Of a stretch of DNA of 23,636 nt, positions 6,001 through 23,636 are shown piece by piece. How positions within the stretch are numbered: position 1 is the first letter of the stretch; every line of letters starts with the position of its first letter. This DNA comes from a virus. The translations under genes were made by a program, and so were the position numbers. The DNA lies in the IMG/VR virus record IMGVR_UViG_3300021092_000214, positions 1-23,636 of that record. One strand, 5' to 3'. The notes under the pieces were generated by a model. It saw only the letters and a program-made list of their open reading frames with translations, was not told where the DNA came from and ran no database searches.

Positions 6001-9000
6001 CTTTCATTGTCTATGTCTGCTCTATAGACTTTATTACCCAAAATATCTAATGATGTTGATAGAAGTTTTCTTCTAAGTTCTCTAGCAGCGTAAGCATGAA
6101 CAAATTGCAATCCTTTCTCTGATGCAAGAGGATTGCTTACTATTCCATCATCATTATTTACCTGATCTGACTGGAATAATCTTTCAACTATGTTAATAGT
6201 CCAAGATTTAACTTTAGCTTCAAATCTAGCACCATTTCCTGTAGGTATTACTTTAATAATAGTATTTACTTGATTGTATCCAAATCCACTTTCAATAATT
6301 TTTACGTCAACAATTGCTCCATTTAATATTACTGGAACCAAAATAGCACCAAATCCAGAACCAATAACTTCTAGCAAAGGTGGTGAATTATAATTTGAAC
6401 CTGGGTTATTTACAATCGCACCAATTATTTTGCCTTGTGATGATACAATTACACTAATTTGTCCATTTTCACCATTTAATAGTGTTATATTTGGTTGACG
6501 ATTATAGTTTACAACATTTGGGTCGCCATAATTGTCACCAATATTTTTCATGGAGATTGATTGTATCGCTCCAGTAAAAATTGGTCTGATTCTGGCATTA
6601 AAATCTTGACCAGCAAAAGTAGTAACTCCAATTGGAGATTCAATTTTTATATTAATTGGTTGATACTTTATAGAATGCTGCCCTGAACCAACATCTGAAA
6701 AATCAATAAATCTTTTGTTTACATAATTATAATCATTTGATATTGTGCTTCCAACTCCTACAGGGTTAACAGAAGCAACTCTAAATGTATTTTTATTAAT
6801 AACATTAATAAAATACTCAGAATTAGTCGAAAGACCTACTGGTAAAATTCCATCAGTATCAAATAATATAGTTTCTTTTTCTGAATAACCATGATTTAGA
6901 ATTGTAATTGTATTATCAAATAAATTGATTGAGTCACCATTAAAGAATAAAGTTTTATTGCTATATCCTTTTCCAGGATTAATTACTTCAATTGAGGATA
7001 TAACTTTTTTTCTATCTGTAGATGTTAATTTTTGGAGACCTTCTCCGTAAGATCCAAAAGTAACAGTATTAATACCAGAAATGGCATCATCTAAAGTGTT
7101 ATGTAATTTTATACGAACAGGATCAATTATGTTGACAAAATAAATCGCATCGTCAACCAGATTGCCAATTTTAGTTTGATTTTGTGAATTATAAATTATT
7201 TTTTCAAAATTTCTAAATTTATGGTATGTTGTAAATCCAATAGAATTATTCGTTAAATTAACCTGATCATATAAACTACCAGCATTAAAAGATACTGAAT
7301 GGATAATTCTAGATAAATTCGCCTTTGCTTCCGCTCCAGTTCCGTTTCCACCTGAAATTGTAATTTTTGGTTCATCAGTATAATCAAAACCTTTATCCAA
7401 AATATTAATTCTAGACAAAGATCCAGTCACATTACATATACCCTCAGCACCAGAACCAAAAATAGTGTTACCAGCACCAACATTATCGGATATGAGCATT
7501 ATTGGGGGGTCAATTACATCATAATTTGAATCTCCATTTGAAGAAACCACAATTTCTTCAATAGGACCAGAGTAAATTGTGTCTGATGATTTATAATTTA
7601 ATAATTCTACACCATTTAAAAATAATCCTAGTGTTCCTGGTTTTGTAATTCTATTTTCAACAATATCATCATCAACACTTGGAGAAAATTTTCTAATTAA
7701 ATCCTGTGCTTGTAATCTTCTATCATTATATTTTAACAATGAAAGTTTATTATTAAATACTGTACCAAAAACATAGACAAACTGACCACTTCTAATATTT
7801 GATCTACTTGTAGCTAATCGTATTGTACTAGAATTGACTTTATATACAAAATATGGCCCCTCTGCAATATTCAAACCAATATTATTATTTCGTGAATAAT
7901 ATACAGCTTCTCCACTAATAAATGAGTTTGAACCAATGTTAAGATCAAATCCATCATATTGCCCTGTAAATATTACAGATAAGTCCTCAACAATAATAGG
8001 AGTATTATAATAATTTGGTAACGAAGAGCATACAACATAAGTATCTTCGTCATCGGTATAAACATTTTGTATGTCTGCCGAAATAATATTAATTTCTGGT
8101 TGATTATTACTATTTGTTTTTGAAATTCCCTTTCTAATTGAATATTTTACATTAGTTGTATCAATTCTAGTTGTTAAATTAACGTCAAATTCATATTTGT
8201 TTGACACTGCTATAACAAATATATTGTATTGATTACCATCACTTCCTTTTATTGTACCAATATCACCTAAAGTAAATATATTAGGGTCAAAAGTTCTTAT
8301 TCTATATTGAGCAGCTCCATTTAATTTTAAAGCAACTTGAGTAATTTGTTCAATTTCATATTCTGGTGTTACATTATTAATCCACGTCGTTCTTACTTGA
8401 TCTTCACTATCTGCTCCTAAAGAAACAATCTCAACCTGGTCGTCAATTTCATAGTAATAAGATGAATCTCTATCAAACTCTAGGTCTCCAAGTACCCCAG
8501 TAATTTTAACTTTAATTTGCTCATTAGAACTTGTAAGTGCATAAGCATAATCTGGAGTTGTTATATCTGTGTTTAAGTCTATTGCAACTGGAGAAGATAC
8601 ACCAAAAAATTGTGTTGAACTTTTACCGTTGTAAGTAAATTTATATTCTACGGTATTGTCAAATACAACAAGAGTTCCAGAGTCTGTAAAACTTAATGTT
8701 GAATCAACATCAAGATAAGTCTGTCCTAATCCAACAGGATTAGTAATTTTTGTTTTTGGGTGTACAGTAAAATTAAAAGTTTCTAATTCTGGATTATAAT
8801 CCAAACTTAATCTAAAATATTCTTCACCATCTTTAAATATTTTTTCAACGTTGGTAATAGATCCAACCGCTTTTAGAATTGTATTCGTTTCATCCTGATA
8901 TAACGTTCTATTGATCAAATCTTCTGGATTTCCAGATAGTCTTTTAATTACAAGATCCCTAGTAATTCTAAAATCTGCATCAGATGGTTGAATTAAAAAA

Positions 9001-9662
9001 TCTCTAGGCTTAATAATTTGTACGGGTGAACCCCAAATAGATTTAAATAATATATCAAAAGAACTATTGGCACCTTTTGATGAATAAAAATCTTTTAATT
9101 TTGATACTAATACCTTTTCATTTAAATCTTCATAAAACTGAACATCTTCAAAACCTGGAGTATATTGGTATTTAAATTTCTTATAAAGTTCAACTAAAAA
9201 TAACGCATGTAAATTATATACAATTTGATTAGACGTATGTGGTGAACGAAGAGTCTTTTCAAATTCTAAAGCATCTGAGTTTGCAGTTCTGTAAGTAGTA
9301 ATTCCACTAAATCCTCTCTTACAATTGATAAAAGTATCAATTGTTTTAGATTCATAAAGAATAATCTCATCATTAATTTGTAAAAGACCATTATTGGGTG
9401 GAAATCCATCCGTACTTTCAACTTTAATTGTGTTAGTAGTGTAACCAGTATCTTCTGTTAGATTTGTATAATATGTTAATTCTGTAATATTGTTTAATTG
9501 TGTGTATTGATCAATATTATTCAGGATGTCTACTGGACCACCAGGAAACTCTAAAGAATCATAATATTCCTTTAAAAATTCTACAAATTCTGGATATCCA
9601 TCCCTGACAAAAGTAGGAAGTTGATCAGAAACTAAATTTTTGATATTAACTCTGTTCTTCAT
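1..9662 (-). CDS. Giant virion baseplate/tail-fibre protein, 3' end beyond the window
   Basis: One reading frame stays open from the ATG at 9662 to the left edge: at least 3220 codons with no stop seen. It starts 5 nt after the gp6 stop, so it belongs to the baseplate operon. Residues 1-300 (LPTFVRDGYPEFVEFLKEYY near 15-34, DFYSSKG near 191-197) resemble the C-terminal part of T4 gp7 as I remember it (FYSTKG..., LFK...). Residues ~1220-1312 form a YHYH domain (HSPIIGWAYDGNPIYGPYGY, then NGRYCKTPEFPNGTYAYF). Residues ~1640-1800 resemble phage carbohydrate-binding modules (YVWGAQVELG, then TRAS). Around these lie beta-rich GxGY repeats and HG-F/L-xxG-D/E-xV repeats (near 925, 1821, 1931, 1990 and 3205). 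Inferred role: baseplate wedge core joined to a very long host-contacting fibre. The virion-structural role is quite sure; gp7 orthology is less so. Confidence 0.85.
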   Translation of the reverse strand, partial: MKNRVNIKNLVSDQLPTFVRDGYPEFVEFLKEYYDSLEFPGGPVDILNNIDQYTQLNNITELTYYTNLTEDTGYTTNTIKVESTDGFPPNNGLLQINDEIILYESKTIDTFINCKRGFSGITTYRTANSDALEFEKTLRSPHTSNQIVYNLHALFLVELYKKFKYQYTPGFEDVQFYEDLNEKVLVSKLKDFYSSKGANSSFDILFKSIWGSPVQIIKPRDFLIQPSDADFRITRDLVIKRLSGNPEDLINRTLYQDETNTILKAVGSITNVEKIFKDGEEYFRLSLDYNPELETFNFTVHPKTKITNPVGLGQTYLDVDSTLSFTDSGTLVVFDNTVEYKFTYNGKSSTQFFGVSSPVAIDLNTDITTPDYAYALTSSNEQIKVKITGVLGDLEFDRDSSYYYEIDDQVEIVSLGADSEDQVRTTWINNVTPEYEIEQITQVALKLNGAAQYRIRTFDPNIFTLGDIGTIKGSDGNQYNIFVIAVSNKYEFDVNLTTRIDTTNVKYSIRKGISKTNSNNQPEINIISADIQNVYTDDEDTYVVCSSLPNYYNTPIIVEDLSVIFTGQYDGFDLNIGSNSFISGEAVYYSRNNNIGLNIAEGPYFVYKVNSSTIRLATSRSNIRSGQFVYVFGTVFNNKLSLLKYNDRRLQAQDLIRKFSPSVDDDIVENRITKPGTLGLFLNGVELLNYKSSDTIYSGPIEEIVVSSNGDSNYDVIDPPIMLISDNVGAGNTIFGSGAEGICNVTGSLSRINILDKGFDYTDEPKITISGGNGTGAEAKANLSRIIHSVSFNAGSLYDQVNLTNNSIGFTTYHKFRNFEKIIYNSQNQTKIGNLVDDAIYFVNIIDPVRIKLHNTLDDAISGINTVTFGSYGEGLQKLTSTDRKKVISSIEVINPGKGYSNKTLFFNGDSINLFDNTITILNHGYSEKETILFDTDGILPVGLSTNSEYFINVINKNTFRVASVNPVGVGSTISNDYNYVNKRFIDFSDVGSGQHSIKYQPINIKIESPIGVTTFAGQDFNARIRPIFTGAIQSISMKNIGDNYGDPNVVNYNRQPNITLLNGENGQISVIVSSQGKIIGAIVNNPGSNYNSPPLLEVIGSGFGAILVPVILNGAIVDVKIIESGFGYNQVNTIIKVIPTGNGARFEAKVKSWTINIVERLFQSDQVNNDDGIVSNPLASEKGLQFVHAYAARELRRKLLSTSLDILGNKVYRADIDNESNVTKYHSPIIGWAYDGNPIYGPYGYADKEGGAVVRLRSGYELKLKGYRPSTASFPPGYFVQDYEFTNNGDLDIHNGRYCKTPEFPNGTYAYFATVNTLKDASGPFNGYLKPIFPYIVGDTFKSKPIEYNFDQYSNLSFVNLNKTGWIRFTSPLGLLLNKTKYQGFIQPDTFSKGFTEVNSISPGELTELQIISPGDNYSIQDNIFFNSQGTGGSGAYARISEIKGRDVDSISYSFSKLVDVEFTPFGSSGRYVGFASTSHSLINGDIVSVQNLNILSTEFASIYTVGISTNTLTLSSSIGNDGQTGIVTYLNVSGNLNFPILSVNDVYKIESEKFKIINVYPQDSRIKVYRSFSGSVSAAHTSGDDIVELSRKFTFNSGFSTSTEYRLNSEYYFDPRESAIIPSENLILYSTPVPPSLVPSAWDYYTSGIGTGTVEYFSAVSPDGSTNAAKVSFASTTGASDAFGLKFEPVSLSSDFNTFSVFLRGHTGNEQIYFILDDGSLYYSQLVTLSSDWKRYSLTAQTGAGTHRIRIGTFGTQGLTLNSSPTVYVWGAQVELGKLTSSYYETSGSALTRASKKSGLLFFSNPGVTQKKGIQTIVNTFYLPNHGFKTGDKVKYNVGHGYTGVRVSYAATTTPLLDSQDLYVATYDNDFIGVSTQRIGIGSTGGFVGIGSDVLELFRIADYGTGEVHSIKTNLPLTIRGDVYKKTATVITNREHGLTSGDEVNIKVTSGITTTFVISYDDINRRMLVNPRVFVDVAINLSRNTITLPNHGFVTGQKVIYNSATPSSGLINSKIYYVIVSDDNTVLLSHYYYDKISSNTAIEIVNIGTQAAGSITPVNPEIFATKNSTIIFDLSSTTLASGSLPSFDFNIYFDPLFQKEFYTSPQNTGAFNFRKSGTIGESNGKAELIIDDFIPTSLYYNLTPIKYAGATAAKLEIISDSLNVKNPNKLSVVDSKFNRITTVSGITSNTFKYSLELTPERFSYNNLQAQTTYSTASRTAIGPVAKISIDSGGRNYVRLPNVTQIVSGLGTAALFLPRSKTIGKVNGVVLTDIGFDYPSDKTLRPLANFPYTYKIEPLSKFKRIQIVTPGVNYFVAPQLAVVDGFTGRVNTEVSLEYEIGDTEVTIIRNTTGLYNVTPKILPINNPNGIRIENIVFDPGTLNVTVSFAVTFASSQDYPFIVGEKIIVENTNIDANFGGRGYNSAAYDYRLFRITAANPDIGGDNPTLTFNLTGFLNPGEEPGIFDSFESFGTATPEAYFPEFDVDLEKDSFRNGEIIVAQDGNVGVVQSYDRRNEFLKIRSKKIFKVDDLVIGASSQNKGLISSVDGITAKYLIESNSITKKGWLRETGKLNQSFQRIHDNDYYQYFSYSVRSPIEYQVWNPLVSNLIHTAGFKKFSELTIDSYDPNVAGMSTAQNLNALIAISDLTEVVDLNSVKDFDIAREKSIQVENTLISNEILFNLPFLAQYQEFIGNRVLTIDDFSDEFNGVNRGFGLKSGGFPIFEVSFNGSDSTKLEFGDGTINLGNHFFVSGEEVEYIPPNNDFANAIKIAPSDFGSGIGVTNLLPSKFIIIKQDNQKVRVATSATNALLFNPIGVAITAVGIGSTHLFKSISPNNRLLITINGTIQSPLVGTAYTIATTSSVGIGTTNIDVVGVTSIFSGDLIQIDDEIMLVSAVNSTTNVLNVKRAWMGSTEDTHASNAVITKFVGNYNVLDNRLHFSEPMWGNLPIGFGTTATSAGDIDYTGLTTSSRFSGRVFLRSALNQSITTSFIKAYDNNYVFDDISNQFNGITTTFTLKYQGNDIDNITSSNTLILINDIFQGPQRLGNVLTNIPGDYKLIAGGGQLQVGFSGPVADPTLTNDINVNSTPRGGIIVSVGSTEGFGYQPLVAAGGTALVSTAGTISQISIGNSGSGYRSGLQTVRVGIQTFSYGSADITYIGIASVLNGHVIGVAITNPKVFYAPREVANIGYSSITGVTTVTTSTPHGLRLGEEVSVVGAA

Positions 9663-9667
9663 ATTTT

Positions 9668-11572
9668 TTATAGTCTTATAAACTCGCCGTTTAAGTAGCT
9701 AGATGATACTATGTATTGTGATCCTGAGATGTCAATTCCAGAAGAAATTACATCATTAATTATATTAATATTTGATTTTGAATTATCTAGTTGTAAATAA
9801 AGATCTTGCTTTCCAATCACATCATTGGATTTTGGTATTGCAGAAAATTCAATAATATCATCACCAAAAGATTTTTTAGTTGTATTTAAAATATTTAAAG
9901 CATTTAATTTTATTTCTCCTCTATTATAATCAATAGACCCAACATTCTTTCTAACAACGACTGGTTGATTACTTGCATCCAATTTAAAGAGAAATACTGA
10001 TCCAAATCCCTCATTATGTGGAAGATCTGACAGATACACGGTTCCAGTAATACCATCTACAGTAAATCCAGAAGTTTTAAAATTATATCCACTACGATTT
10101 TTTATATGAAATTCATTACCAAAACAAATTTCATACTCCGTAAATTGCCTTAATCTAACTTTAAGATCTCTCCTCATTTGGATTGTTGTGATATTTGAGG
10201 TAATTGCAACCGCAGAGTCATCTATTAACTTTAAAAATTTACTATATTTAAATCTAGATCCATATACATTTAATTCATCAGACGCAGCAAACTTTTCTAA
10301 AGTTTGTTGTACTTGATTTTTTAAATACTCTGGAGTTCCTTGATTGCTGTTATAATATACTTTTGCATTATATTCAATGTAAAGATATTTTAAATCTATA
10401 AATTCAGGAACAATTCCAGCGACTGCGTATTTTCTGAGAGTGATTTTTAAATTATCTTTAATTGCAGTTGGTAAATAAGAACCATTTTTTGGTTTAACCG
10501 TAATATAAACCTTTCCAAATTTTGGTGGATTCAATTCTTCACCACCAAATACAGATACTGATTCAGTTTCTGGATAAATTAGGGGTATCAATGATTCATA
10601 ATCAGATGCTGTGACAGCTCTATTCTGAGAAGCGTATACTCTTGGTGCTAATTTTTTAATAGAAGCGATAGATTCAATATCAGCTCCATATCCCGCTACT
10701 TCAAGTGTTGTTAAGAGTGGTTCATCAACAGTAACAGGACTTCCATTATTATCTGCTAATCTACCAGCAAAAGAAAAATTTCGGACACCATTTGCAATTG
10801 AACCATTTGTAGTTACATAACTAACCATGATAAAATTATTATTTTTTAGTTTACTTCCAAAAGTTCCATCACCAAAGATTAATTCATACCTTTGATCCTC
10901 AATTTCATTTAGAAAAAATACATCATCTGTTGGTTTAACTGCAGTTAAATTATCTGCAAATTTATAAACTCTTGAAATATTACTATTTTTACTTTCTCTA
11001 ATAATCACTCTTATCAAGCTAGTATCAATATTATCATTGTTTAAAATAAATCTTTGGTTTTTATTTAAACTGTCAACAATAAAACTATCTTCAATATATG
11101 ATCCTTCAAAAATATCAACATTCGGGAATTCTGCAATTCCACCAGATACAGGAACTGTAACATCGTCTGGTATAGAGTAAATATAATTTATATTTGAGAA
11201 TGATACGTTTGAAGTAGCAACAATACCTTTTTTTAAGGTAATTGTGATTGGGTTGGAGGCAAATGCAGATATATCAACAAAAAAAGATATTTTAGATCTA
11301 GATGATCTAACTGATCTTGGAAGATAACCTAAATTTCTAGCAAGAGATACTACGTTCTCTCTTAGTGTTGCTCCATCCAAAAACACTTCATTAGTCAACA
11401 TATTTGCATTATATGATGTAATATAAGTGTTGTATGCTAGAGTGTCTAGCAATACACTAAAATTAGACCCATCAAAGTCATAATCTGTGTACCTACCATC
11501 AGCTCTCAAAAAGCTTTTGATAGATTCTCTTATATCGTTAAAATCTAGTGCTGATACGTTAACTATTGGCAT
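9668..11572 (-). CDS. 6: Baseplate wedge subunit gp6
   Basis: 634 aa, close to T4 gp6 (about 660 aa). The N-terminal stretch 31-86 (YDFDGSNFSVLLDTLAYNTY, then NEVFLDGATLRENV) is the most typical part of the T4 gp6/baseplate J-like family. The central block near 310-350 (NRAVTASDYESL, then YPETESVSVFGGEE) is the other hallmark. In T4, gp6 dimers form the inner ring of the baseplate wedges and bind gp25, gp53 and gp7. The ATG directly follows the gp25 stop codon (TAA then ATG), and the giant structural gene starts 5 nt after its own stop, which fits co-translation of wedge parts. No signal peptide or membrane segment is visible, as expected for a cytoplasmically assembled baseplate. Confidence 0.93.
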   Translation of the reverse strand: MPIVNVSALDFNDIRESIKSFLRADGRYTDYDFDGSNFSVLLDTLAYNTYITSYNANMLTNEVFLDGATLRENVVSLARNLGYLPRSVRSSRSKISFFVDISAFASNPITITLKKGIVATSNVSFSNINYIYSIPDDVTVPVSGGIAEFPNVDIFEGSYIEDSFIVDSLNKNQRFILNNDNIDTSLIRVIIRESKNSNISRVYKFADNLTAVKPTDDVFFLNEIEDQRYELIFGDGTFGSKLKNNNFIMVSYVTTNGSIANGVRNFSFAGRLADNNGSPVTVDEPLLTTLEVAGYGADIESIASIKKLAPRVYASQNRAVTASDYESLIPLIYPETESVSVFGGEELNPPKFGKVYITVKPKNGSYLPTAIKDNLKITLRKYAVAGIVPEFIDLKYLYIEYNAKVYYNSNQGTPEYLKNQVQQTLEKFAASDELNVYGSRFKYSKFLKLIDDSAVAITSNITTIQMRRDLKVRLRQFTEYEICFGNEFHIKNRSGYNFKTSGFTVDGITGTVYLSDLPHNEGFGSVFLFKLDASNQPVVVRKNVGSIDYNRGEIKLNALNILNTTKKSFGDDIIEFSAIPKSNDVIGKQDLYLQLDNSKSNINIINDVISSGIDISGSQYIVSSSYLNGEFIRL

Positions 11573-11974
11573 TTATCTAGTTGGTAATAATACAAATTCT
11601 AATCGTTGTGGTAGGGCATCAATTCCAACTATTAAATATGTAATTTTAACATCCATCGCCCCCTCATCATAGTTTGGAGTAATAACCGTTTCTATTAACT
11701 CTACTCTTGGTTCAAACCGATTGATTACTTCTGTTATTTGGGTTTCTATTCGTCTAGCAGTAAATAGATCAATAGTTTCAAATAATAATTTATTTACATC
11801 AGTTCCTATAGAAGGTTCAAAAAACTTTTCTCCCCGTATTGTTAAAACTAAATTTTGAACTGATCGAGCGATAGCTTGTTCATTCTTTAAAACAGCTAAG
11901 TCTCTCGTTAAAGGATTGATCTTTAACGAGAGACTAATATCCCTAAATCCAACACTAATACGCTCTAACGGCAT
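11573..11974 (-). CDS. 25: Baseplate wedge subunit gp25 (gpW/gp25 family)
   Basis: 133 aa, against 132 for T4 gp25. The family pattern is clear: FFEPSIGTDVNKLLFE around 51-66, then helix-rich TARRIETQI, then the conserved NRFEPRVE motif (EPR near 88-90), then a beta-strand tail ending VLLPTR. gp25 is the short inner baseplate protein that contacts gp6 and the sheath; it is lysozyme-like only in name and has no catalytic residues here. The ATG at 11974 lies 22 nt downstream of a perfect T4-type late promoter octamer, so gp25-gp6-giant gene probably form a late operon. Confidence 0.92.
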   Translation of the reverse strand: MPLERISVGFRDISLSLKINPLTRDLAVLKNEQAIARSVQNLVLTIRGEKFFEPSIGTDVNKLLFETIDLFTARRIETQITEVINRFEPRVELIETVITPNYDEGAMDVKITYLIVGIDALPQRLEFVLLPTR

Positions 11975-11996
11975 TATTTTGAATATTATTATGATT

Positions 11997-12004
11997 TATT
12001 TATA
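11997..12004 (-). promoter_or_regulatory. T4-type late promoter octamer
   Basis: On the minus strand this reads TATAAATA, an exact match to the T4 late promoter, which is recognised by the phage gp55/gp33 system. It sits 22 nt upstream of the gp25 start in a short gap (11975-12011) after the 83-aa gene. It would drive gp25, gp6 and the giant gene. Confidence 0.75.
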
Positions 12005-12011
12005 GTGGTTT

Positions 12012-12263
12012 TTACCACTTGTGCCCCCAATTTGGCTCAGTGCCATAAGACCAATCATCATAGTCTTCGTCATTGCGAATTTTTTCGTGAAGTTCATTTT
12101 GAACCTCAAAATCATGTTTTTTAGGGGTCTTATCATCATTTGCGATCTCTCGCAACATCTTCTTTTCTTTAGTTTCCTCAGATAATTTGTAATCTGATAC
12201 TAAACTAGTTGTTCCCCACATGCTGTACATGTAGTTAACATCACGATCCGCTGGTTTTCCCAT
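12012..12263 (-). CDS. Hypothetical protein, 83 aa, charged and hydrophilic
   Basis: No family recognised. The protein starts MGKPADRDVNYMYSMWG and becomes highly charged in the middle (EETKEKKMLREIANDD). It ends with an aromatic, acidic tail (DDWSYGTEPNWGHKW). There is no membrane segment or signal peptide, and the central part is probably helical. The start has a good Shine-Dalgarno (AGGAG about 7 nt before the ATG on the minus strand). It lies between the 153-aa gene and the gp25 late promoter, so it is probably a late gene, perhaps a minor virion or assembly protein; that role is inferred from position only. Confidence 0.75.
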   Translation of the reverse strand: MGKPADRDVNYMYSMWGTTSLVSDYKLSEETKEKKMLREIANDDKTPKKHDFEVQNELHEKIRNDEDYDDWSYGTEPNWGHKW

Positions 12264-12307
12264 TTGTTTGCTCCTGATTTGTTAAATCAGAACTTTTTAC
12301 GGGGTTG

Positions 12308-12769
12308 CTATCCCGAATTTTTGACCATTTCGTAGTCATCACCAAGAATTTCTCTCAAGTATGCATCATTCCACATGTCATAATAAGAGGTTCTTGCTAA
12401 TTTTTTACGAAAATCCTGTAATTTTTCCTTTGGTTGCGCTAAAATTAAGTTATATTTACCATTGTTGGTCTGAATTCCTTTTATATACGTCTTATAATTA
12501 CCACAGTCTTCAAAAAACTTCCATTTTGGATGTTTTGAGTTATGGTGATCCACCCAAAATTGAACTGCATCCAAATTAAAGTAGTCTTCTACAATAAAAA
12601 TGATAACATGATACCCATCAATTGGATATACTTCCTCCGCTGGACACTCTATAATTTTAAATTTGGAATTAGATGCAAATGGACACACTGCAAAACCATT
12701 TAATTCTGGTTTAAGTTTAGATACCTCTTTAATCCAATTTAAAATATATATCTCTTTATCTGAAAACAT
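12308..12769 (-). CDS. Hypothetical protein, 153 aa, with CPFA motif
   Basis: Function unknown. The N-terminal NWIKEVSKLKPELNGFAVCPFA (written here only to show Cys-Pro-Phe-Ala near 28-31) recalls DUF1415-type proteins, where a tryptophan helix is followed by CPFA, but the rest is not clearly that family. A hydrophobic strand (YHVIIFIVED near 53-62) and a helix-rich C terminus (KLARTSYYDMW, then EILGDDYEMV) suggest a small alpha/beta fold. The ATG lies 2 nt downstream of a strong terminator's T-run, so it must be transcribed by readthrough or from a promoter inside that hairpin. Confidence 0.75.
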   Translation of the reverse strand: MFSDKEIYILNWIKEVSKLKPELNGFAVCPFASNSKFKIIECPAEEVYPIDGYHVIIFIVEDYFNLDAVQFWVDHHNSKHPKWKFFEDCGNYKTYIKGIQTNNGKYNLILAQPKEKLQDFRKKLARTSYYDMWNDAYLREILGDDYEMVKNSG

Positions 12770-12771
12770 AT

Positions 12772-12803
12772 AAAAAAGAGTGCTTATTACTATTTAAGCA
12801 CTC
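12772..12803 (-). terminator. Rho-independent terminator
   Basis: Perfect 8-bp stem GAGTGCTT/AAGCACTC (12778-12785 with 12796-12803) and a 10-nt loop, followed on the minus strand by six T (12777-12772). It comes 7 nt after the stop of the 46-aa gene. The loop and stem contain TTAAATAG on the minus strand, loosely like a late promoter core. Confidence 0.85.
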
Positions 12804-12810
12804 TAAGATA

Positions 12811-12951
12811 TTAACCTTGTCCTCTATACCTCTTCCGTGCCCCGTTACGAGACGTTGCGGCGTACTTAGTATGTTTACCTGTCCCTTGACGAGTTTTTTT
12901 GGGTTTTGATTCAATAACAATTTTATTAGTCAGTGAAGGTCTTTTTGCCAT
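12811..12951 (-). CDS. Small very basic protein, 46 aa
   Basis: Begins MAKRPSLTNKIVIESKPKKT and ends RKRYRGQG. About a third of the residues are Lys or Arg and there is no hydrophobic core segment, which suggests a nucleic-acid-binding or unstructured peptide. The ATG follows the previous stop by 2 nt and a strong terminator follows its own stop, so it is the last gene of the 53-aa/glycosyltransferase/56-aa transcript. I recall similar tiny basic ORFs in T4-like cyanophages, but no function is known to me. Confidence 0.7.
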   Translation of the reverse strand: MAKRPSLTNKIVIESKPKKTRQGTGKHTKYAATSRNGARKRYRGQG

Positions 12952-12953
12952 AG

Positions 12954-13124
12954 TTAAGATTCAAATAATGGTTCAAGTGAAATTAAATTAGGGTCGATAT
13001 CTTCCCCCGAGAAAAAGCGTTCAGAGAACTCTTGAAGAATATCAGTACAGTCTTCAAGAGTCATATCCTTATATAATGCTCTACCATTATAACACACGTT
13101 ATAAAGTTTCTCAGAGGTACTCAT
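12954..13124 (-). CDS. Small acidic protein, 56 aa
   Basis: Starts MSTSEKLYNVCYNGRALYKD and continues with an acidic helical part (LEDCTDILQEFSERF). It is placed directly between its neighbours: 1 nt after the glycosyltransferase stop and 2 nt before the next ATG. That tight packing is the main reason to believe it is real. The first ~20 residues look like a short beta hairpin followed by helices. Function unknown. Confidence 0.72.
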   Translation of the reverse strand: MSTSEKLYNVCYNGRALYKDMTLEDCTDILQEFSERFFSGEDIDPNLISLEPLFES

Positions 13125-13125
13125 A

Positions 13126-13911
13126 TCAAATCACACGAGTCTTCTCGTGACCAACACGAATCCGTGGATCGCACCAGGTTTCAATGCCTGCCTCTTTGGC
13201 ATCCAGACAGAACGATACGTCCTCTCCACACATATCCTGAACTGCGCCAGATTCAAAGACTTGCATCTTAGGAGCAAACCAAGGATACTCAAGACGCTCA
13301 AAGACACCGTTACGAATCATAACCCAACCAAAACCTGTGTAATCCACGGTGAATGGTTTACGTCTCTTTGCCATAGATTCAGTGGTCTCATGATTCATAA
13401 CACCACCGTTCTTACGGAAGTCATCCTCATCCAACCAGTGAGCAACTGAGGTTGTTACCCCATCTTCAGTGGCATACCATCCAGCAACGATCTCTTTTTC
13501 TTCTTGAGGAATACCGTCTTTATCTGGTCCAGGTACTGCGAGATCGCACAATTGCCAGAATTTTTCTGTGTTGAACACAATGTCATTATCAATCCAAAGT
13601 TGGTAATCATATTGCAGTTTACCATCCCAAGGAATTTGCTTTGGTCCACGAAGAACGTTTGCACCAAGACATTTGCAACGTGCAAAGTTAACCATGGAAG
13701 AATAGTCTTGAGAGATCTGAATACTCATTCCATTCTGCACAAGGTCAAAACAGAGTTGTACAAATGATTTTAAAAATTGATAGGAACAACCACGTCCTGG
13801 AAGACAAAAGACAATACTCTTGCCTCGCATCCTCTCTCTAATTGCATCATAGTCCCAATCCTCCTTAGGTTGCGTAGGAGCAGTGGCTTTTACAGTGAAT
13901 CCTTTTGCCAT
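13126..13911 (-). CDS. GT-A-type glycosyltransferase
   Basis: 261 aa. A DxD-type metal/nucleotide-sugar motif is seen at LWIDNDIVF (Asp-Asn-Asp 108-110). A GFGWVMIR segment is near 193-200, an acidic catalytic-type motif GEDVSFCLDAKEAG at 229-242, and a C-terminal His in RVGHEK at 255. This order (DxD, GFG, ED, H) is typical of small GT-A/GT2-like enzymes carried by phages. It would transfer a sugar from a nucleotide sugar onto an unknown acceptor such as a virion protein, modified DNA or host surface glycan. It lies in the late cluster, which favours virion glycosylation, but this is inference. No membrane segment is visible. Confidence 0.8.
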   Translation of the reverse strand: MAKGFTVKATAPTQPKEDWDYDAIRERMRGKSIVFCLPGRGCSYQFLKSFVQLCFDLVQNGMSIQISQDYSSMVNFARCKCLGANVLRGPKQIPWDGKLQYDYQLWIDNDIVFNTEKFWQLCDLAVPGPDKDGIPQEEKEIVAGWYATEDGVTTSVAHWLDEDDFRKNGGVMNHETTESMAKRRKPFTVDYTGFGWVMIRNGVFERLEYPWFAPKMQVFESGAVQDMCGEDVSFCLDAKEAGIETWCDPRIRVGHEKTRVI

Positions 13912-13959
13912 ATCTTAAAAGTTTTATCAGGTCAATTCTAACGTTTAGTCTTTAGTTTG

Positions 13960-14121
13960 TCAATAGGAACACTCTACCATAAGTTGTCGATTTACTTCGA
14001 CTTCCTCATAGTCAAATTCCTTCCCTTTGAGTTCTTTCCATTTCTCTATGAATTCATCTTCAGAGAGAACAGCATCAATACAATGGTTATCTTTGTCGTA
14101 GATGTGATAAACTTTGTCCAT
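13960..14121 (-). CDS. Small hypothetical protein, 53 aa
   Basis: Begins MDKVYHIYDKDNHCIDAVLS and ends VNRQLMVECSY. It is mixed charged and likely a compact beta-hairpin plus helix (EDEFIEKWKEL). The start is well supported: AGAGGA Shine-Dalgarno about 9 nt upstream and a CATAAATA late-promoter octamer a further 15 nt or so upstream. It is first in the transcript that continues into the glycosyltransferase. Function unknown. Confidence 0.78.
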   Translation of the reverse strand: MDKVYHIYDKDNHCIDAVLSEDEFIEKWKELKGKEFDYEEVEVNRQLMVECSY

Positions 14122-14144
14122 ATTAAATCCTCTTGACTCCCAAG

Positions 14145-14152
14145 TATTTATG
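14145..14152 (-). promoter_or_regulatory. T4-type late promoter octamer
   Basis: Reads CATAAATA on the minus strand, one base from TATAAATA, 23 nt before the 53-aa gene start. It probably initiates the late transcript 14121 to 12811, which ends at the terminator near 12790. Confidence 0.6.
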
Positions 14153-14183
14153 GCATAACTAGTAATACCTTTGTGATTATAGC

Positions 14184-14876
14184 ATGTATAAAAATAAAGT
14201 CATTAATCACAAATACTATCAGTGCTATGATGTATTTGACTCAAAAACTATTGATGACTTATTAGAGAGTTGTGATAAACATTTTAAATTCAATTCTAAT
14301 TCAAATGCCAAAGCAACAGATCTATATCAAATCACAAACTGTATCATGGATTGTCATGGATTGCATTTAACAGATAGTCTCATCTATCCTTATTGTCAAC
14401 CATATTGGAATACTTTTTGTAAAACAGTATGTGAAAAAGTAAAAGAATATCTCTTACTAGTTTATCCAGAATTATTGAAACCAAAATGGAAACATAAAAG
14501 TATTTTATCTACAGGATATCAAGTCTTCCCACATTCTTGTTGGGCGATTAAAATTTTAGCAGATAAAAGAAGAAGACCTATATGTGACTTAGAAAGAAGT
14601 GTAGACTCCCTATGGCCCGAAGATACATTTATCACCGCAATTTATTATTTAAAGAATACAAGTATTGGTAACGGAACCGTTGTAAAATATAATAAATCTC
14701 AGTATTATAAAAGTGATGGTGCAGAGAACTCTCTGTTTATCTTTAGAGATTCTAAGTTTGGTGAATACATTCCATATAAAGACGATGAAGAAAAAATCGT
14801 AATTCGTTTTGAATTTTGTATTCTTGATAAACCTCATAATGTCCCTTGGACATCTCCGAGAATCGTTGGACCCTGA
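14184..14876 (+). CDS. Hypothetical protein, 230 aa; possible degenerate 2-oxoglutarate oxygenase-like fold
   Basis: The only plus-strand gene in the window. The C-terminal half (ITAIYYLKNTSIGNGTVVKY near 153-172, SLFIFRDS, then KIVIRFEF) has the spacing of the double-stranded beta-helix strands of phage 2OG-Fe(II) oxygenases. I cannot find the HxD...H metal ligands: the usual second His position reads FGEYIPY. The N-terminal half is helical and Cys-rich (about eight Cys). It could be an inactive relative or an unrelated beta protein, so I leave the name open. The ATG at 14184 has no clear Shine-Dalgarno. It is divergent from the 53-aa gene, sharing a short intergenic region (14122-14183). 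Confidence 0.7.
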   Translation: MYKNKVINHKYYQCYDVFDSKTIDDLLESCDKHFKFNSNSNAKATDLYQITNCIMDCHGLHLTDSLIYPYCQPYWNTFCKTVCEKVKEYLLLVYPELLKPKWKHKSILSTGYQVFPHSCWAIKILADKRRRPICDLERSVDSLWPEDTFITAIYYLKNTSIGNGTVVKYNKSQYYKSDGAENSLFIFRDSKFGEYIPYKDDEEKIVIRFEFCILDKPHNVPWTSPRIVGP

Positions 14877-15062
14877 GTGGGAAATTTTTTTCTGAAAAAT
14901 TTTTCAGATGAAAGTGAAATCACTCACTCGATTTGTCACCTCTGTAGGTTAGGGTAGTTAACGATTTTATATACGGCGCAGGGCGCGGCATTAGTATAAC
15001 TTATGGAACGAATTAACTGTCATAACGAGATCTGATGAATGGATGTGTCCGCACGAAAGTAT
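14877..15062. other. Non-coding gap between the plus-strand gene and the small-gene array
   Basis: I see no convincing gene here. Directly after the plus-strand stop there is a perfect 16-bp palindrome CTGAAAAATTTTTCAG (14892-14907), a weak terminator candidate. The rest contains a short GC-rich patch near 14974-14989 and no tRNA-like or promoter-like structure I can defend. Confidence 0.5.
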
Positions 15063-15088
15063 AAAAAACCCCCTCACGAATGAGGGGG
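15063..15088 (-). terminator. Strong rho-independent terminator
   Basis: Perfect 8-bp GC-rich stem CCCCCTCA/TGAGGGGG with a 4-nt loop (15069-15088), followed on the minus strand by six T. It ends transcription of the 56-aa gene, 11 nt after its stop, and closes the whole small-gene array. Confidence 0.9.
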
Positions 15089-15099
15089 CAAAGTGTTAA

Positions 15100-15270
15100 T
15101 CAGGGCAGGCAACCTTTGTCGTCAAGTATACCAATGCTTAGGACATTGTTATACAAACCAACGTAGAATCTGCCGATTGATAACCCAAACTGCTCATCAT
15201 CTTTCCCCGCTTGAGTATCAACGCCGAGGTAGAAGAATTCAGCGATTGAGAGAGAAGTTGCGAATTTCAT
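15100..15270 (-). CDS. Hypothetical protein, 56 aa
   Basis: I prefer the start at 15270 (MKFATSLSIAEFFYLGVDTQ). The frame opens at 15327, but that first ATG would put a stable G6/C6 hairpin inside the coding sequence. The product is small, with a hydrophobic strand-rich C-terminal half (GRFYVGLYNNVLSIGILDD). It is followed by a strong terminator. No function recognised. Confidence 0.6.
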   Translation of the reverse strand: MKFATSLSIAEFFYLGVDTQAGKDDEQFGLSIGRFYVGLYNNVLSIGILDDKGCLP

Positions 15271-15296
15271 TGTGGTGATGATAGTGTGAACGTAGA

Positions 15297-15316
15297 GGGG
15301 GGATTGTGTCCCCCCC
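15297..15316. other. Very stable G6/C6 hairpin between two small genes
   Basis: GGGGGG (15297-15302), a 7-nt loop and CCCCCC make a stem without a T-run. It lies between the winged-helix gene stop (15328) and the 56-aa gene start (15270). It may be a 3'-end stabiliser, an attenuator, or part of the leader of the 56-aa gene. Confidence 0.55.
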
Positions 15317-15327
15317 GATTGTATCAT

Positions 15328-15582
15328 TCACATCATGGCGGCGGCGATTCTGTCACGCTTGCGGATCTGCTCAAAGTTAACAAACCACAGATCCCGCTTG
15401 CCATTATCGGCACGGGTTGCACTCAGAACGCCATCCGTTTCCAGATCGACCATAAGGGCGTGAATAGTGCCCTTATGGCGGCGGGGGTCAAGACCAAACG
15501 AGCGCACAAGGTCGCTGCAGGTCAGGGGTCCGTCGTTGATCAGGCGGGAGCGGATGGCGGTGCGGATGATGGTTTTGATCAT
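15328..15582 (-). CDS. Small winged helix-turn-helix protein, candidate regulator
   Basis: 84 aa. The fold order fits a winged helix: helix 1 (IIRTAIRSRLI), helix-turn-helix around 19-46 (LTCSDLVRSFGLDP, then TIHALMVDLETDG), and a beta wing (GVLSATRADNGKRDLWFVN). A basic patch (DPRRHKG) sits at the expected recognition helix. It probably binds DNA as a small transcription factor; its target is unknown. The 44-bp repeat ends 13 nt before its ATG, exactly as at the 58-aa gene, so both may be under the same control. The stop is followed by the G6/C6 hairpin. Confidence 0.7.
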   Translation of the reverse strand: MIKTIIRTAIRSRLINDGPLTCSDLVRSFGLDPRRHKGTIHALMVDLETDGVLSATRADNGKRDLWFVNFEQIRKRDRIAAAMM

Positions 15583-15595
15583 CAGTCTGATGGGG

Positions 15596-15639
15596 TTGCG
15601 CGAGGTCCGTTTGCCTCGCTTGAATGTATCCTAGAGGGT
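15596..15639. repeat. 44-bp direct repeat, copy 1 (5' leader of the winged-helix gene)
   Basis: Identical over 44 bp to 16320-16363. It contains the inverted repeat GCGAGG/CCTCGC. Copy 1 begins on the minus strand at the stop codon of the 54-aa gene and ends 13 nt before the winged-helix ATG. Confidence 0.9.
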
Positions 15640-15803
15640 CAGGCGCTCACGGGAGCGGGTTTGTCACAATCTGAAATAATGTTGACTTGCTCAAAAAATT
15701 GCATCCATTCATCATCACTTAGGGTGGTGCAATTCTTTTCTACAAGCTCAGCGATTCTTTCAGCGGGAAGTTTATACCGAAGGCGGGAGGGATAGTGTGT
15801 CAC
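15639..15803 (-). CDS. Hypothetical protein, 54 aa, GTG start
   Basis: This frame has no upstream ATG, so a GTG at 15803 is the best start. The product (SRLRYKLPAERIAELVEKNC, then TLSDDEWMQFFEQV) has the amphipathic, acidic helical look of neighbouring array proteins. No Shine-Dalgarno is visible, so the start is uncertain. The stop touches the 44-bp repeat. Function unknown. Confidence 0.5.
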   Translation of the reverse strand: MTHYPSRLRYKLPAERIAELVEKNCTTLSDDEWMQFFEQVNIISDCDKPAPVSA

Positions 15804-15882
15804 TGTGTTGAAATTAGGTTTGCTGTAGTGTGCAGAATGTTGGCGGTGCTGTTTCTAACTGTAGGAGACATTAGAAACATCA

Positions 15883-15918
15883 CCACAAAAATGATGGTGA
15901 AAGTTCTCATTTTTGTGG
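15883..15918 (-). terminator. 12-bp hairpin overlapping a stop codon
   Basis: CCACAAAAATGA (15883-15894) pairs perfectly with TCATTTTTGTGG (15907-15918) across a 12-nt loop. On the minus strand the first arm includes the last codons and TGA stop of the 53-aa gene, so the hairpin forms right at its end. There is no long T-run; it may be a 3'-end stabiliser or a weak terminator. Confidence 0.6.
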
Positions 15919-16068
15919 CACCTTTACAGTTACAATTTCGGCGGGAGATCCGCAGGAACGATAGAACGCTGCCATGCGATCTGCCTCCTCAAATGTAGCA
16001 AACGTTTGCTCTCTCCACTCACAAGAATTGTAGGGAGTTTGGTAGCGAATCGTTACACCTAATGCCAT
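15907..16068 (-). CDS. Hypothetical protein, 53 aa
   Basis: I place the start at 16068 (MALGVTIRYQTPYNSCEWRE). The longer open frame back to 16218 would translate through a terminator hairpin. The product is a likely two-strand, one-helix mini-domain (ATFEEADRMAAFYRSCG, then VTVKVPQK). Its start context TTAACATCATG is shared with the 58-aa gene upstream. Function unknown. Confidence 0.65.
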   Translation of the reverse strand: MALGVTIRYQTPYNSCEWREQTFATFEEADRMAAFYRSCGSPAEIVTVKVPQK

Positions 16069-21135: not shown

Positions 21136-22134
21136 TTAATTAATAGAAAAACCTTTTTTTAATGTTATTTTGTCAATTTTCATATCATTTTCAAAGATTT
21201 TATAACGGAATGCATTACAAGAACTATGAGGTGGAATAATAACAGGAGTATAATATCCAGTGAATGCAGTATAACAATGTTTAAAGTCTAATACAGAATC
21301 TCCACACTTTAACATTGGACGAATCACAAGTAAATAAGGTTCATCAATCTCTGGTAACTTAAACTGTATGATACGATTTGACTGATAGTGTTCTGGATTA
21401 TTAATATCAAACACATGAGTGCCAATATGTTCAAATTCATGTGTTTGATAGATGTCTTGCAATAGATTGCGAACACCTACAAAAGTGCTATTTTTATCCA
21501 CAAGATGAACATGATGATAATAATGATCTGCTGAGTGAATAACATTATTATAATATTCAGCAAATTTAGGAGATAAACCCAGGTCTAATGTTACTCCTCT
21601 TGAGATACCTGGATTATTCTCAATATTAATCAAATGACTATAATCTTGAATAGTTAAACGTATAATACTAAAATGAATGATATATTCAGATGGTAGTATT
21701 TTAAAGGGTAATGGGACATTAAATGCACTACCCATCATATCATTCCAGATAAAAGATCCTACCAATTCATGAAAGAGAATATCAACATCTTTAACATTAT
21801 ATGAATCAAATTTAGATGCAATGAATTCATTATTAATCACATGAATCTTTTTAGATAAACCCATTTTTTTTGCTACATTTTGAATATGAGCAGCAGACTT
21901 TGGATTTTGTTCAAAACAGGTTACATGCTTTGCTTTATGCTTTAATGCTAGGAATGCTAGAACACCACTACCTGAACCAACATCAATACAACGTTTACCT
22001 TTACATTCTTTTAGAATTTGATCATAATAACTTAATCGCATTGATTCATTAATCAGTGCAATACCATTATATTGAGAGTCTATCTCTTTATTGAGAGACT
22101 GCATTCTTTCACTATAATTCTGATCAAAGTCCAT
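21136..22134 (-). CDS. SAM-dependent methyltransferase, protein-arginine-methyltransferase-like
   Basis: 332 aa. Motif I is CIDVGSGSGVLAFLA (DVGSGSG at 51-57), with the SAM-ribose acidic residue at FEQN (Glu75). VDILFHELVGSFIWND (117-132) is placed like the double-E loop of protein arginine methyltransferases. The first Glu is present (Glu123); the position of the second holds Asp132 by my alignment, which may change product or substrate. The C-terminal 200 residues are strand-rich like the PRMT beta barrel (FNVPLPFKILPSEYIIHFSI). The true substrate is unknown. The ATG overlaps the upstream 90-aa gene by 11 nt, so it is in the beta-ketoacyl synthase operon. Only a weak possible stem follows it. 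Confidence 0.78.
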   Translation of the reverse strand: MDFDQNYSERMQSLNKEIDSQYNGIALINESMRLSYYDQILKECKGKRCIDVGSGSGVLAFLALKHKAKHVTCFEQNPKSAAHIQNVAKKMGLSKKIHVINNEFIASKFDSYNVKDVDILFHELVGSFIWNDMMGSAFNVPLPFKILPSEYIIHFSIIRLTIQDYSHLINIENNPGISRGVTLDLGLSPKFAEYYNNVIHSADHYYHHVHLVDKNSTFVGVRNLLQDIYQTHEFEHIGTHVFDINNPEHYQSNRIIQFKLPEIDEPYLLVIRPMLKCGDSVLDFKHCYTAFTGYYTPVIIPPHSSCNAFRYKIFENDMKIDKITLKKGFSIN

Positions 22135-22396
22135 TAAATGCCACTTGCTGATTCTCAGTTAATTTATAAATCTTTTGACCTTCAAGTTTATAACTCCCTG
22201 GTGGTAGTCCTAATTGACCAGGAAGTTCCTTTGTATCATTTACAGTGATATCAATCACCTGATCATTCAACGGTGTAACTTTACGATATGCTCGATTCGC
22301 AGGATTCAATGCTACCATCATTTGTGCATCACTGAGCAATGCACATTGACATATATCCTCTCCTGTATTCAGATTCACAACCACATAATAACTCAC
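22124..22396 (-). CDS. Hypothetical protein, 90 aa, GTG start
   Basis: Starts with GTG at 22396 (MSYYVVVNLNTGEDICQCAL), overlapping the synthase stop by 4 nt (GTGA), and overlaps the methyltransferase start by 11 nt. The stretch VVVNLNTGEDICQCALLSDA resembles a small beta-strand domain with two Cys; the rest (GQLGLPPGSYKLEGQKIYKL) looks like a beta hairpin. No ACP phosphopantetheine (DSL) motif, so it is not an acyl carrier protein. Function unknown; the tight coupling makes it a likely partner of the synthase and the methyltransferase. Confidence 0.72.
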   Translation of the reverse strand: MSYYVVVNLNTGEDICQCALLSDAQMMVALNPANRAYRKVTPLNDQVIDITVNDTKELPGQLGLPPGSYKLEGQKIYKLTENQQVAFNGL

Positions 22397-23571
22397 AGTT
22401 TTACCTCAATCACTTGTGATGCACACTTACCACCAAAACCAAAACTGTTATTTACTGTACGCAGAACTTTTGATGTCTTGAAGCTACGTGGAGTCCTTAT
22501 AAGTTGCCTTGATACATCATACTCTGCATTCTTCAGATTATAACAATATGGCATCACACCATTCTTCATACTCAGAATACCGTAAATACATTCCAATACA
22601 GATGCAGCAGCAAGTGTATGACCAATCTTTGATTTAGGTGCATAGATTGGAATATCAGGCAAATACTCACGCAATACATCATATTCTACTTCATCACCAA
22701 TCGGTGTACTTGTAGCATGTGCAGAGATCACATCAATCGTATCAGGTTCAATACCATCCAATGCTTTATCCAGTGCTAATCTTGCACCACGTCCATCAGT
22801 GGCAGGACTTGTTAAATCCATTGCATCACTTGCACAACCAACTGGATATAACTTTGCATGAACAGTTGACTTATAGTGTTGTACTTTATCCTTTGACTGT
22901 AAAATTAAAATACCCGCGCCTTCTCCCATCACAAATCCTTCACGATTCTCATCAAATGGAGAATTATGATTACCCAGTGCGCCAATGCCAGCGAAGTATT
23001 TTAATGCCATCTCAAAGACTCCAGCATCTGCTCCACCTACAATCACATAATCATACTCATCCAGTATCCTCATCGCATAATCAATTGAATACATTCCAGT
23101 CGCACAACTTGCATAGATTGCCAGTGATGCCCCGTGAAACTTATAATGACTCGTAATCTGTCCTACAATCATATCGGGAATACGATTCACAATCTTAAAT
23201 GGATTTACCCTCTTATTCTCTTTGAATCGTTGGAAGTTACCATCAAGAAACTCCACATCATTTGATACACTTGATACAATTACAGCAACATTTGATGAGT
23301 GTGGTAGATTTGCCATCTTCAGTGCCTGTTCAGTTGCATGAAGTGCCATCTGTTGTGCCCGCGTCATGTTAGCGGTTATTTTTGGCGTAAACGCCTCGGG
23401 AAGTAGAATATCATGCAAACATGGAATACCATACTGAATCTTATGATCTCCCATAAAATCTAGCTTTTGAATGGGATTGTATTCATTCATCAAATTCAAA
23501 AAGCAATCACCAGGAGTATTTCCCAGTGCATCAATCATCCCATAACCAACAACATACGCAGGATTCACCAT
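22393..23571 (-). CDS. Beta-ketoacyl-ACP synthase (KAS I/II, FabF-like)
   Basis: 392 aa, near the usual 410. All the family's active-site landmarks are intact: nucleophile Cys156 in YASCATGMYSID, His285 in SAHATSTPIGDEVE, Lys313 and His318 in PKSKIGHTLAAAS, plus PFDENREGFVMGEGAG at 205-220 and the C-terminal glycine loop NNSFGFGGKC at 374-383. The enzyme would condense malonyl-ACP with an acyl primer in fatty acid- or polyketide-type synthesis. Start ATG with a strong GGAGG Shine-Dalgarno about 10 nt upstream. It is complete, so likely active. It lacks detectable AT, KR or ACP partners in this window; a partner might lie to the right or come from the host. Confidence 0.92.
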   Translation of the reverse strand: MVNPAYVVGYGMIDALGNTPGDCFLNLMNEYNPIQKLDFMGDHKIQYGIPCLHDILLPEAFTPKITANMTRAQQMALHATEQALKMANLPHSSNVAVIVSSVSNDVEFLDGNFQRFKENKRVNPFKIVNRIPDMIVGQITSHYKFHGASLAIYASCATGMYSIDYAMRILDEYDYVIVGGADAGVFEMALKYFAGIGALGNHNSPFDENREGFVMGEGAGILILQSKDKVQHYKSTVHAKLYPVGCASDAMDLTSPATDGRGARLALDKALDGIEPDTIDVISAHATSTPIGDEVEYDVLREYLPDIPIYAPKSKIGHTLAAASVLECIYGILSMKNGVMPYCYNLKNAEYDVSRQLIRTPRSFKTSKVLRTVNNSFGFGGKCASQVIEVKL

Positions 23572-23577
23572 ACTGTA

Positions 23578-23636
23578 CTAACCTCCAAATCCCTTGACTG
23601 GTTTCTTCTTCTCTATTCTATCAAGAACTTCCACAT
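23578..23636 (-). CDS. 3' end of an upstream gene in the same operon
   Basis: Only the last 18 codons are visible, ending EVLDRIEKKKPVKGFGG before TAG at 23580-23578. The stop is 6 nt before the synthase ATG, and the Shine-Dalgarno of the synthase lies in these last codons. Too short to name. Confidence 0.6.
   Translation of the reverse strand, partial: VEVLDRIEKKKPVKGFGG

Follow-up and report, generated by a model that had tools for sequence, protein, structure and literature searches.

The DNA analysed here (hereafter the window) is a stretch of 23,636 nucleotides carrying the gene of a putative viral beta-ketoacyl-ACP synthase (KAS) near one end. The features of the window that are needed for the following analysis are listed below.

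9668..11572, minus strand: T4-like baseplate wedge protein gp6 (best matches 54%, from cyanomyoviruses)
11573..11974, minus strand: T4-like baseplate wedge protein gp25, which marks the type of phage
21136..22134, minus strand: SAM-dependent methyltransferase of 332 aa, the N-terminal part of which is RsmD/PrmA/PRMT5-like
22124..22396, minus strand: protein of 90 aa with no Pfam match, the start of which overlaps the KAS stop
22393..23571, minus strand: viral KAS II/FabF-like beta-ketoacyl-ACP synthase of 392 aa, with catalytic residues C156, H285, K313 and H318
23578..23636, minus strand: small upstream ORF, present in the window by its 3' end only, holding the SD-like GGAGG ahead of KAS

The translation of the KAS gene gave an uninterrupted reading frame of 392 aa, beginning with the ATG at 23571 and ending with a stop at 22393. 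The original prediction of a complete KAS at 22393-23571 was thus exact in its coordinates, and the strand, which it did not give, is minus. The residues Cys156, His285, Lys313 and His318 and the Gly-rich end are all present, as had been claimed. The SD-like GGAGG lies at 23586-23582, approximately 10 nt ahead of the KAS ATG. No T4 late promoter was seen in the 65 nt upstream of KAS in the window or in its near relatives; such a promoter (TATAAATA) was found upstream of KAS in L025 only. The small ORF at the 5' side of KAS is ~67 aa long at full length in contig L008 and has homologues in L008, L040, L009, L011 and L012.

The genes for KAS, the 90-aa protein and the methyltransferase overlap end to start, which agrees with the proposed operon of the three genes. 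The 90-aa protein also adjoins KAS in L002, as well as in L003, where it stands behind an inserted HNH-like gene. It was considered as a candidate ACP and rejected, as no ACP domain match was obtained. The methyltransferase gene is present in L003 and gave no match in INPHARED. As a fixed partner of KAS it was rejected, since it is missing at that place in L002, a relative with 93% identity; this part of the operon proposal did not hold. The stable element of the local operon is KAS itself. HNH-endonuclease-like genes, recognised by eye, directly follow KAS in L003 (7179-7568) and L004 (7170-7484), and this site is possibly that of a homing element. Members of the cyanophage subclade encode a glycosyltransferase of family 11 (fucosyltransferase-like) some kb upstream of KAS (L002 1353-2489, with homologues in L003-L006). 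The remark that KAS lies far from the structural genes is true only in relative terms, as the baseplate gene gp25 is 10.4 kb off on the same strand.

The nearest relatives of gp6 were those of Synechococcus and Prochlorococcus phages (52-54% identity, S-SM2 with 54% among them). The profile search also detected psbA and psbD in G003, a relative of 119 kb with a KAS 72% identical to that of the window. Since gp6 and gp25 are T4-like, gp6 matches cyanophages best and the relative carries psbA and psbD, the window is most likely a fragment of an uncultured T4-like cyanomyovirus. The earlier description of KAS as a phage gene is thus supported, and a cyanobacterial host, as assumed there, is probable. 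The same relative contains zwf-, gnd- and talC-like genes and several NodU/CmcH-like carbamoyltransferases (L179, L187-L191; all seen by eye). The far end of the window is occupied by a giant tail/baseplate-like ORF (3-9662, minus strand) of more than 3220 aa, which is open at the window end; its relative in G001 (12112-25284, minus strand) has 4390 aa.

To find relatives of the protein, viral contigs were scanned with a profile of 15 rows. The scan yielded 104 relatives, the best 80 of which were kept; nearly all of these 80 were 40-93% identical to the KAS of the window, and they form 34 groups at 85% identity. Metagenomic viral contigs thus hold at least 80 KAS loci. Meanwhile, no member of the family was found among the 50,697 phage records of INPHARED, which gave only bacterial-looking or distant matches of 25-34%, although more than 400 Synechococcus-phage or cyanophage records there contain a related gp6. 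The view of KAS as a rare phage gene therefore holds for INPHARED records and less so for metagenomic viral contigs. One protein annotated as 3-oxoacyl-ACP synthase (L287 3776-4720, MW202545; 314 aa), encoded near the tail genes of a siphovirus, was 27.5% identical over half of the query and was rejected as a member. Two phage KS3/FabB-like proteins from BFVD, A0A8S5QDX3 and A0A6J7X0R1, share the KAS fold but are only 24% and 19% identical to the KAS model; they were compared outside the tree and are probably separate acquisitions.

The bacterial counterparts were more distant. In GTDB genomes, the best 80 of more than 590 pattern matches were 28-36% identical to the viral KAS, a selection that may have missed closer ones. 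Matches in the phylum Cyanobacteriota were found in 116 of 118 genomes, with at most 37% identity over part of the length, and the identity did not exceed 33% among the plasmid matches listed. The near-identical host fabF that would have spoken against the original prediction was not found in these searches, the best bacterial matches seen being ~28-37%. A KAS tree of 88 proteins, including 35 viral representatives and a limited bacterial sample, was built by a quick method and rooted at the midpoint. All 35 viral rows fell on one side of a long branch with a support of 100, and the KAS of the window was not placed within bacterial FabF in this tree. The phage-only clade for which a tree had been suggested as a check was hence recovered, and KAS apparently represents an old virus-only branch.

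These results bear on the explanation that a host fabF was captured recently or that the assembly was contaminated with host DNA. Phage records can indeed hold bacterial-looking KAS genes, as the 25-34% INPHARED matches, mostly from unannotated records, illustrate. Nevertheless, the virus-only clade and the low bacterial identity (no relative above ~37% in the genomes and plasmids searched) make a recent capture very unlikely. The gene also recurs in contigs of different metagenomes, and G001 shows it in unchanged gene order next to T4-like baseplate genes, so that we regard this explanation as barely credible.

The class of the enzyme was examined by alignment, profile searches and structure prediction. 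When the protein was aligned with FabF and FabB of E. coli, C156, H285, K313 and H318 proved to be the active-site residues, equivalent to FabF C163, H303, K335 and H340. These four residues and the NNSFGFGG motif are identical in 81 of the 81 aligned viral KASs, the gate loop NNSFGFGGK occupying residues 374-382 in the window protein; the catalytic and gate residues are thus kept although the viral KASs diverge to ~40% identity. The N- and C-terminal ketoacyl-synthase domains PF00109 and PF02801 scored 91.5 and 75.5 bits against Pfam gathering cut-offs of 20.8, and the presence of an intact KAS gene with its catalytic residues is, on this sequence evidence, far beyond chance. The dN/dS of 0.14-0.26 obtained against six close relatives shows purifying selection, as estimated from these sequences.

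Among the NCBIfam models, FabF was the best for the window KAS with 242 bits, although the protein missed the cut-off of the FabF equivalog TIGR03150 (241.9 vs 493.75 bits); polyketide models reached at most 138 bits. When the viral KAS profile was compared with a PDB set, FabF was preferred over FabB and KasA (Listeria FabF 209 bits, FabB 148). The AlphaFold2 model, for which 15 viral sequences served as input, had a pLDDT of 85 and was weak at residues 103-109 and 124-131. Its top PDB fold matches were FabF structures of the thiolase fold, with TM values of ~0.87-0.92, and the Foldseek comparison with B. subtilis FabF gave an E value of 3.7e-36. By sequence profile and predicted fold, the viral KAS is therefore nearest to FabF/KAS II. 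A polyketide ketosynthase or chain-length factor was ruled out by the retained active Cys, by the residues and by the profile scores below that of fabF. The polyketide-type or surface-glycan role suggested earlier is not borne out by the nearest profile and fold, which are those of FabF.

The viral proteins share with FabF of bacterial type II fatty acid synthesis (FAS) the thiolase fold, the Cys-His-His plus Lys set and the GFGG gate loop, whereas the identity is only ~28-33% (28% with E. coli FabF), the clade is separate and the length is 392 aa instead of 413 aa. FabF residues 96-99 and 213-219 (numbering that counts the start codon) are missing from the window KAS and from more than 80% of the viral KASs. 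A Lys stands directly after GFGG in 81 of 81 viral KASs, where FabF has T, H or Q. The segment around FabF I108, a residue lining the acyl pocket of FabF, is replaced in the viral proteins, the window KAS having S103. The Lys, the deletions and the changed I108 segment were all absent from the aligned bacterial rows. Because of the replaced segment, the chain specificity may differ; a smaller residue at the I108 position could admit long chains, in a part of the model that is itself weak.

The genes accompanying KAS on other viral contigs were then compared. Across the groups, the commonest neighbour of KAS belongs to a family of membrane desaturases with three histidine boxes. As PF00487 alone was too insensitive for these proteins, the profile A3 was built from KAS neighbours within 8 kb. 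It matched 19 of the 47 viral KAS contigs, each of which has a copy at most 8 kb from KAS, upstream or downstream. The closeness of desaturase and KAS gave a combined Fisher p of 0.0013 (11 lineages, contigs of at least 50 kb), a value that is generous because building A3 from neighbours biases the distance test, which is also favoured by gene order shared by descent. The desaturase query matched one record among the 50,697 phage records.

Further acyl-ACP genes were found near KAS in other subclades. Immediately ahead of KAS, G028 and G045 encode a FabI-like protein, the holo-ACP synthase AcpS and a desaturase. In G011 and G044, an ACP gene lies 4-7.5 kb before KAS, and the gene of a soluble acyl-ACP desaturase starts inside the KAS end. 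A MaoC-like protein is encoded on the KAS contig of G037. FabA/FabZ gave no match on the 47 viral KAS contigs; FabG was looked for via PF13561. Away from KAS, G028 also encodes a 326-aa protein with an ACP-like domain, the DIDSLDAIEL motif lying within a longer chain (L180 1793-2773, near 72.3-73.3 kb). L160 (G037), from a phage with two desaturases besides the MaoC-like protein, encodes two radical-SAM-like proteins, recognised by eye, between 5.5 and 2.6 kb ahead of KAS.

The viral contigs are fragments. On those of the window's own subclade, including G003 (119 kb) and G001 (70 kb), no desaturase, ACP, AcpS, FabI-like, MaoC-like or FabA/Z match was found. The link of the window KAS to lipid genes is therefore carried over from the sister clades.

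Some of the loci look different. Around KAS, L169 (G044, 513-10801) and L123 (G011, 3669-16048) resemble biosynthetic clusters, with ACP, several 2OG-Fe(II) oxygenase-like proteins, an FkbM-like protein (by eye), a soluble acyl-ACP desaturase and PhyH; L169 adds a cytochrome P450 and L123 a ferredoxin-like protein (by eye). Up to four tandem HxD...H paralogues, resembling 2OG oxygenases, directly precede KAS in L125 (5721-7989), and such genes were also seen in L015, the L016-L036 group and L135. The oxygenase-like families C2 and C116 had no Pfam match at E 0.05; in the Pelagibacter phage Mosig, the C2 profile hits a protein that bears the annotation Asp_Arg_Hydrox.

It is mainly the oxygenase-rich loci of G011 and G044 that speak for a second explanation. 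In this view, KAS would make or lengthen an acyl or polyketide-like chain that goes into a dedicated small molecule or a surface lipid and is then oxidised, rather than into bulk membrane fatty acid. The HxD...H proteins upstream of KAS in several other groups and the replaced I108 segment (S103 in the window), with its possible change of chain specificity, would fit this. However, KAS is closest to FabF and not to polyketide synthases by both profile and fold, the commonest partner found is a desaturase, no cluster of this kind surrounds KAS in the window, and in the cyanophage G003 oxygenase-like genes, seen by eye, also occur away from KAS. We consider such a specialised product unlikely.

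KAS enzymes are dimers, and the viral protein might accordingly pair with host FabF, or hold host acyl-ACP, and so redirect or slow host lipid synthesis as a regulator or poison, catalysis being secondary. Stand-alone viral KAS genes with no other FAS gene detected are common in our set, as would be expected. Yet the full catalytic set is present in 81 of 81 viral KASs, and the FabI-like, AcpS, ACP and desaturase neighbours seen in other lineages point to productive catalysis. We consider a mainly regulatory role very improbable.

As the catalytic residues are conserved and acyl-ACP genes are neighbours in sister lineages, a working condensing enzyme is favoured. Our main reading, to which we assign a probability of about 0.6, is that KAS is a catalytically competent, virus-specific condensing enzyme of the KAS II type, by which a T4-like cyanomyovirus alters the acyl chains of the infected cell. 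A role in acyl-chain metabolism, as originally predicted, is likely given the FabF-like profile and fold and the neighbours in sister lineages. We infer the activity, substrate, ACP partner and physiological purpose of the enzyme as follows. The acyl group would be loaded from acyl-ACP onto Cys156. His285 and His318 would assist in binding malonyl-ACP, which would be decarboxylated and condensed to a 3-ketoacyl-ACP longer by two carbons. Since the contigs of the window's subclade showed neither a phage ACP nor any other FAS protein, host ACP, malonyl-ACP, FabG, FabZ and FabI would be used. The outcome may be an increased elongation flux, a changed acyl chain length in the membrane lipids of the infected cell, or both. 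In the sister viral lineages, KAS would act together with a viral desaturase, joined in some cases by a viral ACP, AcpS, FabI-like or MaoC-like protein, to yield longer and/or unsaturated chains.

Phage KAS genes and viral lipid genes have been described before. Three roseobacter prophages are reported to carry fabG-acpP-fabF (PMC8224337) and so also place a KAS gene in a phage context, but in bacterial gene order, whereas the KASs studied here form a virus-only clade and that of the window belongs to a T4-like phage. The accessible text of two virome surveys lists fabF as a viral AMG (PMC10653327, PMC12783922); the enzyme name and the idea are the same, these being annotation-level calls that we liken by name only. 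Virus-encoded fatty acid desaturases have been described, with arguments that they are functional (PMC7300359, where Roitman et al. 2018 is cited for cyanophages). They too are phage genes acting on acyl chains, and they are of the neighbour type commonest beside the viral KAS; however, they desaturate existing chains without making a carbon–carbon bond, and none was found in the window's subclade. In the literature within our reach, mostly outside subscription papers, neither a virus-only KAS clade nor its linkage with ACP, AcpS, FabI-like or desaturase genes was described, and nothing on phage ACP, FabI or AcpS was found. While prophage and virome studies already list fabF as an AMG and viral desaturases are known, the virus-only KAS clade and the position of its putative members beside desaturases, and in a few cases also ACP, AcpS, FabI-like and MaoC-like genes, appear to be new.

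To our knowledge, the making of carbon–carbon bonds in fatty acids is not usually ascribed to phages. The virus-only clade, the conserved active site and the acyl-ACP neighbours suggest that chain building, and not only desaturation, may be under viral control. More broadly, and with somewhat less than even odds, aquatic phages, including T4-like ones, may have in common an old type II fatty-acid module that evolved in viruses and has KAS as its core, the other parts (ACP, AcpS, FabI-like reductase, MaoC-like dehydratase, membrane or acyl-ACP desaturase, oxygenases) being mixed between lineages, which would give virus-specified acyl chains in infection. As the virus-only KAS often stands beside viral fatty-acid genes, the viruses carrying it probably reshape the fatty acids of infected cells, and it becomes a testable question whether infected aquatic bacteria, cyanobacteria included, contain virus-specified lipid chains.
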